NCBI RefSeq assembly: GCF_000422945.1
Contig: NZ_AUHA01000003.1
Location: forward strand, 1-64,000
Reading direction: 5' to 3'
DNA: 64,000 nt
Source of the DNA: Daejeonella oryzae DSM 19973
Lineage (GTDB): Bacteria; Bacteroidota; Bacteroidia; Sphingobacteriales; Sphingobacteriaceae
The notes under the pieces are model-generated. The model saw only the letters and a program-made list of their open reading frames with translations. It had not been told where the DNA came from and did not search any database. Shown piece after piece: positions 30-4,699 of this stretch; the stretch's first letter is position 1, and the number at the start of each line of letters is the position of its first letter. The translations under genes and the position numbers were made by a program.

Positions 30-1373
30 TTACAATTGCAAATTAAGCTCGTCCGTCCTGATGTCAAACCTAGCAATTAGCTTTTTCATTTCCTGAACTT
101 TCCTCTTTCTTTTCTGATCTAGAAATTCATAAGTGGTCTCGGCTCTGTAAGGGACTTTTTTTACCAGCATGTTCCAAATAATAACAGCCAGTTTTCTGGC
201 TGTTGCAGATATAGCCGACACACGTCCCTTTCTGAAAGCGATGCGCTTAAAGAAATTGGACAGAGCTGTATCTTTCAGATTTCCTATGGCATTGGCGGCA
301 TTTCGAAGGGCTATTTTTAACCGGTTACTTCCTTTAGGTATTTTATTACTCAGTACTTTGCCTCCGCTTATTTTATTATTGGGCGAAAGTCTTAACCAAC
401 TGGAAAACTGCTTGGCTGATTCAAACTTATGTATCCCATTGCCTACCTCGCTCATCAGAGTGAGTATAGTGGAATAGCTTACTCCTTCAATTGCCAGCAG
501 GTCTATCCCCTCAAAATATTGATAAGAGAGCAGGTTGATGTCCATGTTCTTGGGCGTATTCTTATTTACTTTCTTGTAAACTTTTTTATCAATGGCATGC
601 TGCTTTTTATTGTCGTCCTGGCCAATCTGTTCATTCAGGAGCTTTTCGATTTCACCATCGCATTCTGTAATTTTTGACTGCAGGTTTTGGTACATCTGGT
701 ATTCATGACCCAGTGCAAACAAGTAATCTTTTCTCCCGTTCCATTGTAAGGCTTTGGCAATCTCCTCTTTTGATTTTTTACAATTGCCATGGCGGTAAGC
801 AGCTAGTCTTTCCGGATTGGTTTCTCCCTTGCAAATGGCATCGATCATGGCAAGCCCCGAGAGACCGGCTACATCTTTGACTACCACATCCAGACGCAGA
901 TTCAGTAGCCGTAGATACTTCTGCATTTTCTTAGTAGTGCCTGCTGCCTGTTCTAATAAATTAGTCCGGTGCCTGCAATAGGTGCGTAACTGCTCCGTGG
1001 CTTCATCCGGTAAAAAGCTTCCGCTTAATAAACCTAATGTATGTAGTTTTTGAATCCACTGACAATCCTGTACATCCGTTTTCTTTCCCTTAATGTTTTT
1101 AGTGAACTTGCCGTTGCACAGAATTACCTCCAACCCTGCGGACTGAAGCGCAGCATATAGACTTTGCCAATAAGTGCCTGTACTTTCCATAGCCACAGTT
1201 CTGATTCCATTACCTAAAAACCACTGGGCCATTTCTAATAAATTCTCATTGTAAACACCAAACTCCCTGACATCAGATTCTGCCTGACCGATAGCTGCAT
1301 AATGTGACCGGCTTCCAACATCAATCCCAGCAGCACAAGGATTGATCACTTCCATAGATACTTTTTTGCTCAT
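30..1373 (-). CDS. IS110-family transposase (DEDD recombinase)
   Basis: This 447-residue protein is a full-length IS110 recombinase. The N-terminal RuvC-like DEDD domain shows D18 in GIDVGS, E63 in AMESTGTYW, and D100 and D103 in KKTDVQDCQ, so all four acidic residues are present. The C-terminal half is the Transposase_20 domain, with a helix-hairpin-helix stretch (LLAIEGVSYSTILTL) followed by the FSSWLRLSPNNKISGGK region that carries the serine active site in this family. The reading frame is intact. Known members act with a bridge RNA made from the element end to pair donor and target DNA. The long non-coding end lies upstream of this gene, which fits the IS110 rather than the IS1111 subgroup. 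Confidence 0.93.
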   Translation of the reverse strand: MSKKVSMEVINPCAAGIDVGSRSHYAAIGQAESDVREFGVYNENLLEMAQWFLGNGIRTVAMESTGTYWQSLYAALQSAGLEVILCNGKFTKNIKGKKTDVQDCQWIQKLHTLGLLSGSFLPDEATEQLRTYCRHRTNLLEQAAGTTKKMQKYLRLLNLRLDVVVKDVAGLSGLAMIDAICKGETNPERLAAYRHGNCKKSKEEIAKALQWNGRKDYLFALGHEYQMYQNLQSKITECDGEIEKLLNEQIGQDDNKKQHAIDKKVYKKVNKNTPKNMDINLLSYQYFEGIDLLAIEGVSYSTILTLMSEVGNGIHKFESAKQFSSWLRLSPNNKISGGKVLSNKIPKGSNRLKIALRNAANAIGNLKDTALSNFFKRIAFRKGRVSAISATARKLAVIIWNMLVKKVPYRAETTYEFLDQKRKRKVQEMKKLIARFDIRTDELNLQL

Positions 1374-1506: not shown

Positions 1507-1635
1507 TTACATTCCAACCAGGATTGCACCCGGGCTATAATGCGCCAGTTTTAAAATCGGTCTCGCAAAGGGCAATTAGAAAGGTACTAACGTTAGCTGT
1601 GGAAATCAATTTTTTGGTCGAAATAGGGAGGATTG

Positions 1636-1770
1636 CCCACAACGTTTTGCAGCTACAAAAAGTTGGCGATTTCGGAGACGAAAACTGTCTGCCAGCAGTG
1701 AAATTGATACTAAGCACAAAGCTTTATTTAACCACTGAACCCGCTTTTTTGCCAAACACCTGTTAGCAAC
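1636..1770 (-). repeat. Cassette-like palindromic repeat, copy A
   Basis: This unit of about 135 bases begins 4 bases after the stop codon of the 1775-2521 gene, reading on the minus strand. Its core (1670-1723) matches the core of copy B (2989-3042) at 40 of 54 positions without gaps, sharing TTTCGGAG, AACTGTC and AAGCACAAAGCT. The outer arms, AACGTTTTGCAGC on one side and TGTTAGCAAC on the other, pair only loosely. Size, the AAC and GTT at opposite ends, and the position just after a gene resemble attC sites of integron cassettes, but no integrase is visible in the window. Confidence 0.6.
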
Positions 1771-1774
1771 CGAT

Positions 1775-2521
1775 TTATTTCTTCGCTCGCTCTAGTTTCT
1801 CAATTAAATCATCAGCTATGTCTATATATTGTTTCTTTTCATTGTCAGATAGATAATATCCTTCATGAAGTATTTTGTTTCTTGTCTGTAGTAATTCACG
1901 AATCTTCAAATACTCCATTTCGTTTGATGTGAAATTTTCTGTCAAGTATCGAATAACTTGATTTATAGAATTTGATTTAGAATCACTGATGTTGTTTGAT
2001 TTCATTATTGATGTTGTTAATTGCTCAATAATTTGCCACCTTTTTACAATGTCAAAGCTTTCAATGCTTGAGTAAGTCTTTGTGGATGTTTCGGTGCTGA
2101 AAATTAAATGTCTTCTTGTCAACAATTGTCCGTAGAGAAATGCAACAAGAGTAATTAAGATACCAAGAACGGCTATTATCAGTCCAAAGTCGTTTTCAAG
2201 AGAAAATTTCTTGTTCTGGTATAAATAAATAAGAATCCCTGCAACTGCATAAACTGCTCCGCTTAGTGATAGAAGCATTGTCCAGCGTTTTCTTTTATAT
2301 TCTTGGTATTTTTCTTTCTCAATAGTATGTTTTATTGGTTGTTGTGCTTCCAATATGTCCCGAAGAGAAATTTCTTTATTCGCTGTATTCCTTTCTTGTG
2401 CTATTGAAAATGCTTTTTCTACAAGAGATTGTTTAAAATCTTCTGTCAATTCGGTCAATGCCTCTTTTGCTGAAGGAGTGAGTTTTGAATATATGTTATC
2501 GTTATTCATTGTTGTTGTCAT
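1775..2521 (-). CDS. Membrane protein with histone-fold-like N-terminus and HEPN-like C-terminus
   Basis: I do not recognise this 248-residue protein as a named family. Residues 14-60 read as a long helix followed by a loop and EISLRDILEA, the pattern of helix 2, loop 2 and helix 3 of a histone fold. Two membrane helices follow (about 81-101 and 112-134). The C-terminal cytoplasmic part ends in TRNKILHEG, which gives R214 and H219, the R-x4-H signature of HEPN nuclease-like domains, followed by a helix. Its start overlaps the end of the upstream small membrane gene by 20 bases, so the two are probably co-translated partners. The pair sits between two cassette-like repeats. The histone-fold and HEPN assignments are from pattern only. 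Confidence 0.6.
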   Translation of the reverse strand: MTTTMNNDNIYSKLTPSAKEALTELTEDFKQSLVEKAFSIAQERNTANKEISLRDILEAQQPIKHTIEKEKYQEYKRKRWTMLLSLSGAVYAVAGILIYLYQNKKFSLENDFGLIIAVLGILITLVAFLYGQLLTRRHLIFSTETSTKTYSSIESFDIVKRWQIIEQLTTSIMKSNNISDSKSNSINQVIRYLTENFTSNEMEYLKIRELLQTRNKILHEGYYLSDNEKKQYIDIADDLIEKLERAKK

Positions 2522-2903
2522 TAAGGATTAAATAAACTGCTGAAACCACAGCGACAAGAAAAACTATTAAGAACATAATTACATATCCAATGTCTTTGAA
2601 TTTGTCTGTGTCAAAAAGTCCACCAGCAATTGTGGAAGCGACAAATGCTAAAATTTGCATAAATATTTGTCGCTTTGGTTTTCTTTTTCTTATGCCATAA
2701 TTTTTTGCAAAAACAACAGCGTCATTGATGATTGCAGCGGTCACTTCTGCATTGGCACTTGATGTCCTTCGGCTTTCCTCAATTCTACTTGCTTCATCTA
2801 AAACATCTTCAATATATGATTTAGAGACCTTCCTAATCTCTGTCTTTGCTGTCGCACTGAGATTTTGAAGTTTATCATCTGATATGTCAATTTCTAATTT
2901 CAT
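2502..2903 (-). CDS. Small membrane protein with histone-fold-like N-terminus
   Basis: This 133-residue protein has an N-terminal cytoplasmic segment, LSATAKTEIRKV at 15-26 and then a long acidic helix to about residue 46, followed by a loop and EVTAAIINDAVVFA (53-66). That order resembles the second and third helices of a histone fold. A basic linker RKRKPKR (72-78) leads into two membrane helices (about 80-97 and 105-127) and an acidic tail. It shares this architecture with the downstream gene, which it overlaps by 20 bases, so a heterodimer through the histone-like parts is plausible. Function is unknown, and nothing excludes a plain coiled-coil membrane protein. Confidence 0.6.
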   Translation of the reverse strand: MKLEIDISDDKLQNLSATAKTEIRKVSKSYIEDVLDEASRIEESRRTSSANAEVTAAIINDAVVFAKNYGIRKRKPKRQIFMQILAFVASTIAGGLFDTDKFKDIGYVIMFLIVFLVAVVSAVYLILNDNNNE

Positions 2904-2954
2904 TCACTTATTTTCATTGTTATATTCTTTGTTTATGCGGTCGCTCAAAATTCG

Positions 2955-3091
2955 CTACTAACGTTTTCGGGTTTTGCGTTCTGGCGGGTTTCGGAGCACA
3001 TAACTGTCAAACAGCACTGAACTTGTATAGAAGCACAAAGCTCCAAGTTTACACGTCACCCCGCCTGACGCAAAGCCCGTGTTGGCAGTAG
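2955..3091 (-). repeat. Cassette-like palindromic repeat, copy B
   Basis: The outer arms 2955-2988 and 3059-3091 are an imperfect inverted repeat: CTACTAACG..CGGGTTTTGCGTTCTGGCGGG matches the reverse complement of the right arm, CTACTGCCAACACGGGC.TTGCGTCAGGCGGGG. The core (2989-3042) matches copy A at 40 of 54 positions. On the minus strand the unit starts 7 bases after the stop codon of the ATPase gene. Its 137-base length lies within the usual attC range. I do not see the exact integron core consensus, so the call is attC-like only. Confidence 0.65.
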
Positions 3092-3097
3092 TTTTTC

Positions 3098-4612
3098 TTA
3101 TTCTGTCAATTTTAATTGTTTACTCAACTTAAGTCCTGTAATAAATTCATTTAACAACTCAAGATTAAGTTTTGGTGATGACCTTAATTTGTCTTCTCTA
3201 CCTTCATCATCTTTTTGCCCGGGTTCAACTTGTTGGAAATTTCTTGGATTGGCGTTTGGAAATAATCCAATATCAATTAGATAGGCAGAATACCTTGTTC
3301 CGTCACTTGGAGCCGAACTAGTATTTGAGTTTGCAATGTGCAAGAGTCTCAAGTCAACCAATTCCTTGATTGCTTGATTTATTTGTGGGTGTTGTAGAAC
3401 ATCCGAATTAGAAACTAAAAATGAATTCCATCTTTTCTTGTCAACAATTTCTCTTCTTATAAATTGCAAATAATGTTCAAGAACTTCCTTTTCTTCCAAA
3501 CTGTCAGTTTTAAATGCTTCAAGTTTATTTGGTAAATTTTCAATGCTAGTTTCAATAACGAGAGGTTTACTGATTGTAGACTGTCCGTTGATTATTTTGT
3601 TCCCAAGTGTCAAAAATAGTGTGAAAAAATCTCTTGGAACGCCCCCGGAAGCCAAGCATAAAAATCTAAATCCATTTTCGGAAAAGAGTTTTTCATAATC
3701 AATTTCAACTTTTACTTTCTTATTTATATTGTACAATAATTCTTTCATAAAACTTACTAGAGCATTAAAGTTTTCAAGACTATAATCAAGATTCAGAGAT
3801 TGTCCATCGTGTCCAATTTCCATTCCGATATAAGTATCACTTTGAACATACAAAGATGTTCGATGCTTTATTGAAGCTATTTTCAAGTAAAGTCTAGTAT
3901 TTTTGGAAATTCTGTGAAAAAAGTCAGCAAAATAAGGTTGGTCAGATTTACGGATAAAGTAAAAGTCATCAAGAATTAGAAATAAGTCTTTGTCGAGGTA
4001 TTCTGATGCTTTTTGTATTAGCTCCTTGAACTCAGTAAGTTCATTTCTTAAAATATTAAGTTTATCGATTCTGAGAGTTTTTGATGACTCAGACTCTTCT
4101 TGAATTTCTGATCCTATTTTAGCAGTTGATTTACCATATCCGCTTGATGCTTCACCTGAAAATTTGCTTCCACTTTTTACTCTCGTTGATTCGTCATATT
4201 GGTCTGGGTTAGCAAGTCGAGCTTCAAGTTTGGTGAGATACTTGTTTAAGTCTTTAATTATGTTTTGGGCTTTTTGTCTTTTTACTAATTCCCACCATTT
4301 ATAAGATTCAATCAATGATTTATTCAGCTGTTTAATAACTAGTCTTAATACTTGGATAATAGAGTTAGGAAAACTAATGTCTTTGAAATCATCAAGATTA
4401 ACAGTCATTACTTCTGTGTTTGTGGCACTTGTCTTCAATGACTTTAAAAGAAGTGATTTGCCCGAACCACGTCTTCCAAAAATCACTTGATTCTGTTTGC
4501 TTAAAAGTCTTTCAACGTGTCCTTTAGGGTCAAGATATTCAATTGTCGTCTGGTCTGTTACACGAATATTTTCTTCTATGTATCTTAAAACTTTATTTAG
4601 GTCTTGTGTCAT
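3098..4612 (-). CDS. P-loop ATPase of AAA/Orc1-like type, accessory
   Basis: This 504-residue protein has a Walker A motif GRRGSGKS at residues 46-53 and a Walker B motif LFLILDDF at about 210-217, an arrangement like Orc1/Cdc6-type and STAND-like ATPases. A Ser/Gly/Lys-rich low-complexity stretch lies between them (about 143-180). The later FLCLASGGVPRDFF segment resembles the sensor-2 helix region, and the C-terminal part may be a winged helix. I chose the ATG at 4612 because the domain begins there; an upstream ATG at 4675 would add 21 residues that look unrelated. The gene is followed at once by cassette repeat B and is not part of the neighbouring secDF unit. A role in defence is possible but unproven. 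Confidence 0.7.
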   Translation of the reverse strand: MTQDLNKVLRYIEENIRVTDQTTIEYLDPKGHVERLLSKQNQVIFGRRGSGKSLLLKSLKTSATNTEVMTVNLDDFKDISFPNSIIQVLRLVIKQLNKSLIESYKWWELVKRQKAQNIIKDLNKYLTKLEARLANPDQYDESTRVKSGSKFSGEASSGYGKSTAKIGSEIQEESESSKTLRIDKLNILRNELTEFKELIQKASEYLDKDLFLILDDFYFIRKSDQPYFADFFHRISKNTRLYLKIASIKHRTSLYVQSDTYIGMEIGHDGQSLNLDYSLENFNALVSFMKELLYNINKKVKVEIDYEKLFSENGFRFLCLASGGVPRDFFTLFLTLGNKIINGQSTISKPLVIETSIENLPNKLEAFKTDSLEEKEVLEHYLQFIRREIVDKKRWNSFLVSNSDVLQHPQINQAIKELVDLRLLHIANSNTSSAPSDGTRYSAYLIDIGLFPNANPRNFQQVEPGQKDDEGREDKLRSSPKLNLELLNEFITGLKLSKQLKLTE

Positions 4613-4633
4613 ATTCTTAAAATTACTGCCAGC

Positions 4634-4699
4634 TAGTATATATACTATGTGGTAATATATTAGTAGAACCTGCATATATATCCTCTATATATACTATGT
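4634..4699 (-). promoter_or_regulatory. Palindrome and direct repeat upstream of the ATPase gene
   Basis: A perfect 14-bp palindrome TAGTATATATACTA (4634-4647) lies 21 bases upstream of the ATPase start codon. The 14-mer TATATATACTATGT occurs at 4637-4650 and again at 4686-4699, a spacing of 49 bases. This could be an operator with a second half-copy, or a duplicated junction at the edge of the island. No clear TAnnTTTG element is visible here. Confidence 0.35.

Follow-up and report, generated by a model that had tools for sequence, protein, structure and literature searches.

A two-gene membrane module with a predicted HEPN RNase and histone-like N-terminal domains, carried as a candidate integron cassette in Daejeonella oryzae

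In a 64,000-nt stretch of the genome of Daejeonella oryzae DSM 19973 (contig NZ_AUHA01000003.1, positions 1 to 64,000; the window in the following), two overlapping genes, here called S and L, encode membrane proteins of 381 residues combined that recur as a pair in other bacteria. We suggest, with a probability of roughly 0.55, that S restrains L, a predicted membrane-bound HEPN RNase, until a trigger allows L to pair and to cleave RNA, and that the two proteins would act as a toxin or defence module. What can be read directly from the DNA and its translations is the gene pairing, the membrane hairpins, the intact HEPN motif and the mobile setting. The parts of the pair are as follows:

2502..2903, (-) strand: gene S, 133 aa, first gene of the pair; histone-like N-terminal domain and two membrane helices
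2712..2867, (-) strand: S residues 13-64, histone-like helix 2-loop 2-helix 3 segment with the conserved EA-R-E...E(V/I)T...A
2526..2669, (-) strand: S membrane hairpin, TM1 79-97 and TM2 108-126 by hydropathy
1775..2521, (-) strand: gene L, 248 aa; histone-like N-terminal domain, two membrane helices and predicted C-terminal HEPN domain
2348..2485, (-) strand: L residues 13-58, histone-like segment, missing from L in two of the five pairs
2132..2278, (-) strand: L membrane hairpin, TM1 82-100 and TM2 112-130 by hydropathy
1778..2086, (-) strand: L residues 146-248, predicted HEPN domain
1865..1882, (-) strand: R214-N-K-I-L-H219, an R-x4-H motif as in HEPN RNases, with R, N and H unchanged in 5/5 homologues

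By the coordinates of the open reading frames, the end of S and the start of L overlap by 20 nt. A preliminary description of this DNA had quoted the two overlapping frames, an N-terminal segment of each, the string TRNKILHE and residues R214 and H219, and all of these are present in the translations as given; it let L end in the R-x4-H motif, which is there but lies 29 residues before the C-terminus. The two membrane helices that it assigned to each protein are likewise seen by hydropathy in S and L of the window. Window L has 6 K/R in the 15 residues before TM1 and window S has 7, and the homologues described below have 4 to 7 basic residues at this place where TM1 passes the hydropathy threshold (in S of Lactococcus and Sinorhizobium TM2 alone passes it). 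Because basic residues precede TM1, both termini of S and of L are most likely cytoplasmic. In S, the Pfam scan recognised no enzymatic domain.

Together with the window we found five pairs in which S is followed by L, always adjacent, on one strand and in the same order, with junctions that overlap by 20, 8 or 4 nt or leave gaps of 0 and 3 nt. The other four lie on plasmids of Lactococcus, Rhodococcus and Sinorhizobium and in one genome of the same family (G776), and the five cover four phyla, i.e. Bacillota, Actinomycetota and Pseudomonadota (plasmid records) and Bacteroidota (window and G776). The co-occurring homologues that the preliminary description had called for therefore exist, and the S-L unit is conserved across phyla. 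In tblastn searches of plasmids at an E limit of 0.01, Lactococcus pUCCL635A was the single plasmid matched by L and, independently, by S, and the two matches fall in adjacent overlapping genes; judged by these alignments, the agreement of independent searches on adjacent genes of one plasmid is more than chance. With the limit relaxed to 10, L also matched Rhodococcus pRB29 over nearly its full length (E about 1), in a gene that overlaps a 118-aa S gene by 4 nt, and this pair was confirmed via S (E 2e-7 with S of G776 as query). The G776 pair was found by a three-row L profile (E 1.1e-12), and Sinorhizobium pCB3126_2 was matched by S of G776 (E 5e-10) and has an L gene directly behind S. In G776 and Sinorhizobium, L starts 0 and 3 nt after the S stop codon, in the same frame as S.

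The S-L pair is rare in the sampled genomes. Leaving the window aside, none of 59 close relatives has L with its partner, and the same holds for 394 other members of the phylum and for 394 of the class; among 399 of the order, one has the pair. S gave no member in samples of 59, 394 and 285 genomes. These samples overlap one another, and weak matches in 18 sampled genomes were read and set aside. Among 19 genomes of the same genus that were searched, L had no match at E 0.001. Scans of viral contigs, which used between two and six short peptide patterns each, returned no S or L member, and phage records searched with window L gave no match. PHROGs, run on three of the five pairs, listed weak matches of unknown function and one structural-protein match, and the NCBIfam scan covered window proteins only.

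Several candidates were rejected. A Roseobacter phage match to S of G776 (E about 1) lay under a ribonucleotide reductase gene, a Haloferax match (E 0.2) was antisense to an annotated gene and an Agrobacterium match was an AHJR-HepT fusion. A HEPN protein of Rhodothermales, the only one that the genome-contig scan returned (the same place as locus L006), has no S partner, and the HEPN-motif proteins at L006, L013 and L042 and a SIR2-like protein at L044, all recognised by eye, have no S-like neighbour; the loci L003, L005, L007, L009, L011, L012, L014-L018, L043, L045 and L046 were unrelated by eye. The L042 gene (1438-2172, (-)) encodes a 244-aa membrane protein with the C-terminal HEPN-type motif RNLIAH, possibly another kind of membrane HEPN protein, and the 556-aa protein at L044 (1489-3159, (-)), which the HEPN part of the L profile matches at E 4.8e-4, is possibly a SIR2-HEPN fusion. 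Phyllobacterium and Rhodococcus DK gave further matches in the homologue searches.

We regard the C-terminal region of L as very probably a member of the HEPN superfamily, on the strength of several tests taken together, no single one of which is decisive. Anantharaman et al. (2013, PMC3710099) define the superfamily by R-x4-6-H, the R being followed by a polar residue. The motif reads RNKILH, RNKIVH, RNRIAH, RNKIVH and RNDIVH in the five L, each with a polar residue after R, and in the alignment W162, E166, L211 and I217 are invariant together with the R, N and H; K or R stands four residues beyond E166 in two of the five, compared with the Ex3[KR] that is typical of the upstream acidic position in the superfamily. 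Conservation of R214 and H219 was one of two tests that the preliminary description had set for its interpretation (the other concerned plain coiled coils in predicted structures), and R and H are kept in all five. Pfam HEPN_RiboL-PSP (PF18735) matches the C-terminal region of three L with E 1.4e-3, 9.6e-6 and 1.8e-4 (19.0, 26.1 and 21.9 bits, all below the gathering cut-off of 28.4 bits) and gives no match to the other two; HepT-like matches this region of a fourth L at E 0.0033, below its curated cut-off. Sinorhizobium L has no HEPN match in Pfam at E up to 10 and is counted as L because gene order, alignment and motif agree. The CARF_HEPN model of PADLOC matches Lactococcus and Rhodococcus L over the HEPN part (0.0041 and 9e-4), DpdF matches one of the two S of these pairs (0.026), and no model of PADLOC 2.0.0 matches either protein of the window pair at E up to 1. 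The HEPN-motif protein of Rhodothermales aligns with L 190-243 at 37%.

The structure models of S and L are single-sequence predictions, and the L model has pLDDT 57 and pTM 0.39 overall, with a better C-terminal part (pLDDT about 52-80). For residues 146-248 of this weak model, VIA-align 2 places 2hsb on top (Z 9.2, rmsd 2.5, 94 aligned), followed by 1wwp (Z 8.4) and 6m6w / MntA-HepT (Z 8.0); 1wwp and 5yep, also among the structure matches, are HEPN proteins. Titles identify 11 of the first 20 rows as HEPN, HepT or Csm6, Csm6 being itself a HEPN protein. Unrelated or unnamed rows start at Z 7.9, and since helical bundles commonly give Z values below about 13, such a value is no proof alone. 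In Foldseek, HEPN structures rank first for the C-terminal part of L (best E 0.47, probability 0.97), with nothing at E at or below 0.001. The HEPN-type domain that the preliminary description had seen in the larger protein is well supported by the motif in all five L and by Pfam and structure matches that agree. The motif is of the active type as described for HEPN RNases (PMC3710099), and we predict RNase activity.

Around the pair in the window lie three further features:

2951..3096, (+) strand: attC-like site on the upstream side of the cassette, an imperfect hairpin with z -2.74
1635..1770, (+) strand: attC-like site on the downstream side of the cassette, z -1.69, its outer part apparently cut off by the IS110 end at about 1634
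30..1373, (-) strand: IS110-family transposase, a neighbour outside the pair, whose element abuts the downstream attC-like site

The upstream site folds better than 197 of 200 shuffles, and contig C7 of the same genome carries a 126-nt copy of it at 86% identity; the truncated downstream site folds better than 188 of 200. Since relatives of these sites occur on contigs C1, C2, C5 and C7, the pair is, as judged from sequence, flanked by attC-type sites repeated in the genome, in the manner of an integron cassette. An integron-integrase-like gene (C2:738612-739418, within a 478-residue open frame; matched in pieces of 103 and 91 bits, cut-off 265) lies at the far end of contig C2, about 0.8 kb away from an attC-like stretch, and a second integrase-like match, broken by a stop, lies near attC-like stretches of C5. 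All 9 listed ORFs of at least 120 aa in contig C7 6000-15000, and all 12 in contig C5 60000-72000, are on one strand, with attC-like repeats between some of them, and both regions look like further integron cassette arrays. The same IS110 end is also present on contigs C4, C8 and C10; because the match to the C10 copy continues about 15 bases beyond the IS end into similar sequence (window 1555-1770 compared with C4, C8 and C10), these alignments suggest that the IS110-family element targets attC-like sites. The upstream neighbour of the pair, 3098..4675 (-), encodes a P-loop ATPase with sub-cut-off matches to Sll1717-family and DS41_1 anti-phage ATPases and may represent another cassette of defence type.

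Three of the five pairs are plasmid-borne (Lactococcus, Rhodococcus, Sinorhizobium), and that of G776 sits between purN and purH, genes named by eye from their translations. A recognised candidate defence operon stands beside one of the five only: the Sinorhizobium pair adjoins PDC-M01A/B genes (E 6e-146 and 9e-80), the A component of which also matches Septu PtuA. Another neighbour of that pair is a gene for a 901-aa protein (L048 6980-9685 (-)) with a caspase-like PADLOC match at E 8e-6. Among integron cassettes of Vibrio, at least 16 of 179 from V. cholerae and 9 of 57 from V. parahaemolyticus are described as anti-phage (PMC12409362). The mobile or defence-type setting expected in the preliminary description agrees with the attC-like flanks, the integrase-like gene, the three plasmids and the Septu-like operon beside the Sinorhizobium pair, and it is because of this genomic context that defence or addiction appears the likeliest role of the module.

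The N-terminal domains, or heads, of S and L probably adopt a histone-type fold. The conserved S pattern A / EA-R-E / E-T / A aligns on histone helix 2, loop 2 and helix 3, and in hhalign against a histone reference of ten histone-fold sequences, the S head profile scored 26.1 (E 1.5e-4, probability 52%) and the L head profile 20.65 (E 0.0019, probability 15%). None of 150 block shuffles reached the real score for S (maximum 17.6) or for L (maximum 19.1), the reversed profiles scored lower (10.7 vs 26.1 for S and 16.2 vs 20.65 for L) and the control regions of L reached 11.1 (HEPN part) and 5.9 (membrane part). Against the PDB, the best match of the S profile was a chain with two H2B copies (E 0.0074; a single copy alone 20), other H2B entries (E 0.8 to 1.2) ranked below unrelated proteins (0.24 to 0.67), and TAF13 came third for the L profile (E 0.33) behind two unrelated proteins; PDB sequence searches with full-length S, full-length L and two-row profiles gave nothing convincing. 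In Pfam, window L matches TFIID_20kDa (E 0.0011, with one membrane family ahead of it at 0.0009) as well as CBFD_NFYB_HMF (E 0.035, 14.8 bits), and the S consensus matches CBFD_NFYB_HMF (E 0.0054, 17.4 bits; its reversed control has an unrelated match at 0.0096), both below the CBFD_NFYB_HMF cut-off of 21.4 bits. The L consensus has no histone match in Pfam. A ribbon-helix-helix reading of S (Pfam ParD, E 0.0052) was set aside, without being excluded, as the match is repeated in no homologue. In hhalign the S and L heads alone match at E 0.0012 (probability 19%) and the whole profiles at E 3.3e-6 (probability 88%) over head and TM1; by these profiles the two families are related over the N-terminal domain and TM1, and the long form of L may be a duplicate of S fused to HEPN.

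Alternatively, the N-terminal domains could be a common membrane-proximal helical hairpin or coiled coil with no more than a resemblance to helices 2 and 3 of histones, in which case the membrane HEPN pair would still stand. Histone helix 1 is undetected in both proteins, the alignment starting after helix 1 with about 12 residues N-terminal to it; single-sequence Pfam scans return a histone family for one of three long-form L and for none of the five S; DUF7167 (0.006) and a short coiled-coil family (0.015) are listed close to the histone match in the scan of the S consensus; and the S model, whose structure search gave no useful match, is one long helix 9-69. This model (pLDDT 62, pTM 0.29) is however of too low confidence to decide, both S and L align on the same helix 2-loop 2-helix 3 unit with scores that neither shuffling nor reversal reproduces, and the H2B, TFIID_20kDa and TAF13 matches arise from different searches, so that we consider a plain hairpin or coiled coil rather unlikely. 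The histone-fold reading of both N-termini is thus retained in part: the helix 2-loop 2-helix 3 profiles beat all shuffles, but helix 1 is undetected and the family scores stay below their cut-offs. A histone-fold heterodimer like the one that the preliminary description had proposed cannot be the general tether, because the head is present in S of all five pairs and in L of three; the L of G776 and Sinorhizobium, which lack it, cannot be longer because they start in frame right behind the S stop codon. Such a heterodimer is possible in three pairs at most, and the membrane hairpins would remain as the contact between S and L in the pairs with a headless L. Seven of the eight heads have a net charge of -3 to -6, and DNA binding is unlikely because they are acidic.

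Combining these data, we suggest that S and L would constitute a membrane module of two genes, present here as a mobile cassette, and that it would work as follows: (i) L would be a HEPN RNase held at the inner face of the cytoplasmic membrane by its two-helix hairpin, and S, encoded first, would be a membrane partner without a nuclease, the histone-like domains and the hairpins providing the association surfaces, (ii) in the resting cell S most likely would keep L in a form in which the HEPN domains cannot pair, and (iii) a membrane trigger, e.g. phage entry or loss of the S-L complex, would let the HEPN domains pair and cut RNA so that growth stops, as in toxin-antitoxin systems or abortive infection. 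HEPN RNases are active as dimers, and antitoxins are often encoded first and overlap the toxin gene. S is encoded first in all pairs and overlaps L in three; because this arrangement is antitoxin-like, S is favoured as the restraint on L. The S-L complex, the inhibition by S, the RNase activity, the trigger and the defence role are inferred. A more far-reaching version, which we put forward tentatively and at less than even odds, is that a non-DNA-binding histone-type fold serves as a membrane-side dimerisation switch, in which paired heads would keep the HEPN RNase split and their release would yield the active HEPN dimer. The pair would then be a type of anti-phage or addiction module that is absent from the papers searched and that integron cassettes and plasmids have carried into at least four phyla.

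The division of labour might also differ. L could be a stimulus-dependent membrane RNase for stress regulation of host RNAs, following an Ire1-like logic with S as the sensor and no role as toxin or in defence. Stimulus-dependent RNA degradation has been proposed for membrane HEPN proteins (Anantharaman et al. 2013, PMC3710099), and the place of the G776 pair between two pur genes would suit such a function, but the patchy presence of the pair, down to the 19 same-genus genomes in which L is unmatched, and its plasmid, cassette and defence-neighbour settings argue against it and make it distinctly unlikely in our view. Yet more improbable is an effector role for S, as a pore-forming SLATT-like membrane protein with two helices, L then being a sensor or RNA-binding regulator: SLATT_4 is found on window S at E 0.11 and SLATT_3 on Rhodococcus S at E 0.31, but with 12.3 bits against a cut-off of 55 and 11.7 against 26.3, over what is mainly the hydrophobic stretch, and the invariant catalytic-type motif sits in L, not in S. 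The reading in which S restrains the RNase L is therefore preferred.

The combination of S and L was not found in the literature searched, and we place it with the membrane-associated HEPN modules. In the open-licence literature searched, neither a histone fold with transmembrane and HEPN parts in bacteria nor a histone fold with an anti-phage function in bacteria was found, and histone folds and HEPN are mentioned only apart. As far as the part of Anantharaman et al. (2013, PMC3710099) available to us goes, membrane HEPN proteins fall into three groups, of which the Abi2/Swt1 group has an all-alpha domain, one TM helix and a C-terminal HEPN. L resembles that group in its cytoplasmic helical domain, membrane anchor and C-terminal HEPN with an intact motif, and it differs from this and the other membrane HEPN proteins described there in its two TM helices, its histone-like N-terminal domain and its upstream partner S. 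Transmembrane histones without the usual DNA-binding residues are a named category (Schwab et al. 2024, PMC11390915), and S and L are similar in joining a histone-like domain to membrane segments, with seven of the eight heads acidic; unlike those proteins, they have no detected helix 1, their genes are paired and the head of L is joined to HEPN. The available text of that paper contains no nuclease fusion, and its main text no word starting 'Bacteroid'.

With the HEPN-MNT system (MntA-HepT) the pair shares the two-gene unit with an RNase-type HEPN component, and the L model matches HepT structures; unlike in that system, S is a membrane protein and both partners are membrane-bound, and none of the five S has a Pfam match to the minimal nucleotidyltransferase domain. 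The family of PDB 3jrt is an integron cassette HEPN (PMC3710099) and in this is like the pair in the window; in contrast to that family, for which the available description mentions no membrane part or partner gene, a two-gene membrane module is carried here. The S-L pair therefore links three things that have been kept apart, i.e. bacterial histone-like domains that probably do not bind DNA, membrane HEPN RNases and integron or plasmid modules, in a small two-gene system that is testable through named residues and through homologues on Lactococcus, Rhodococcus and Sinorhizobium plasmids. Should the heads control the RNase, this would assign a function to one class, or more, of transmembrane histone-like proteins.
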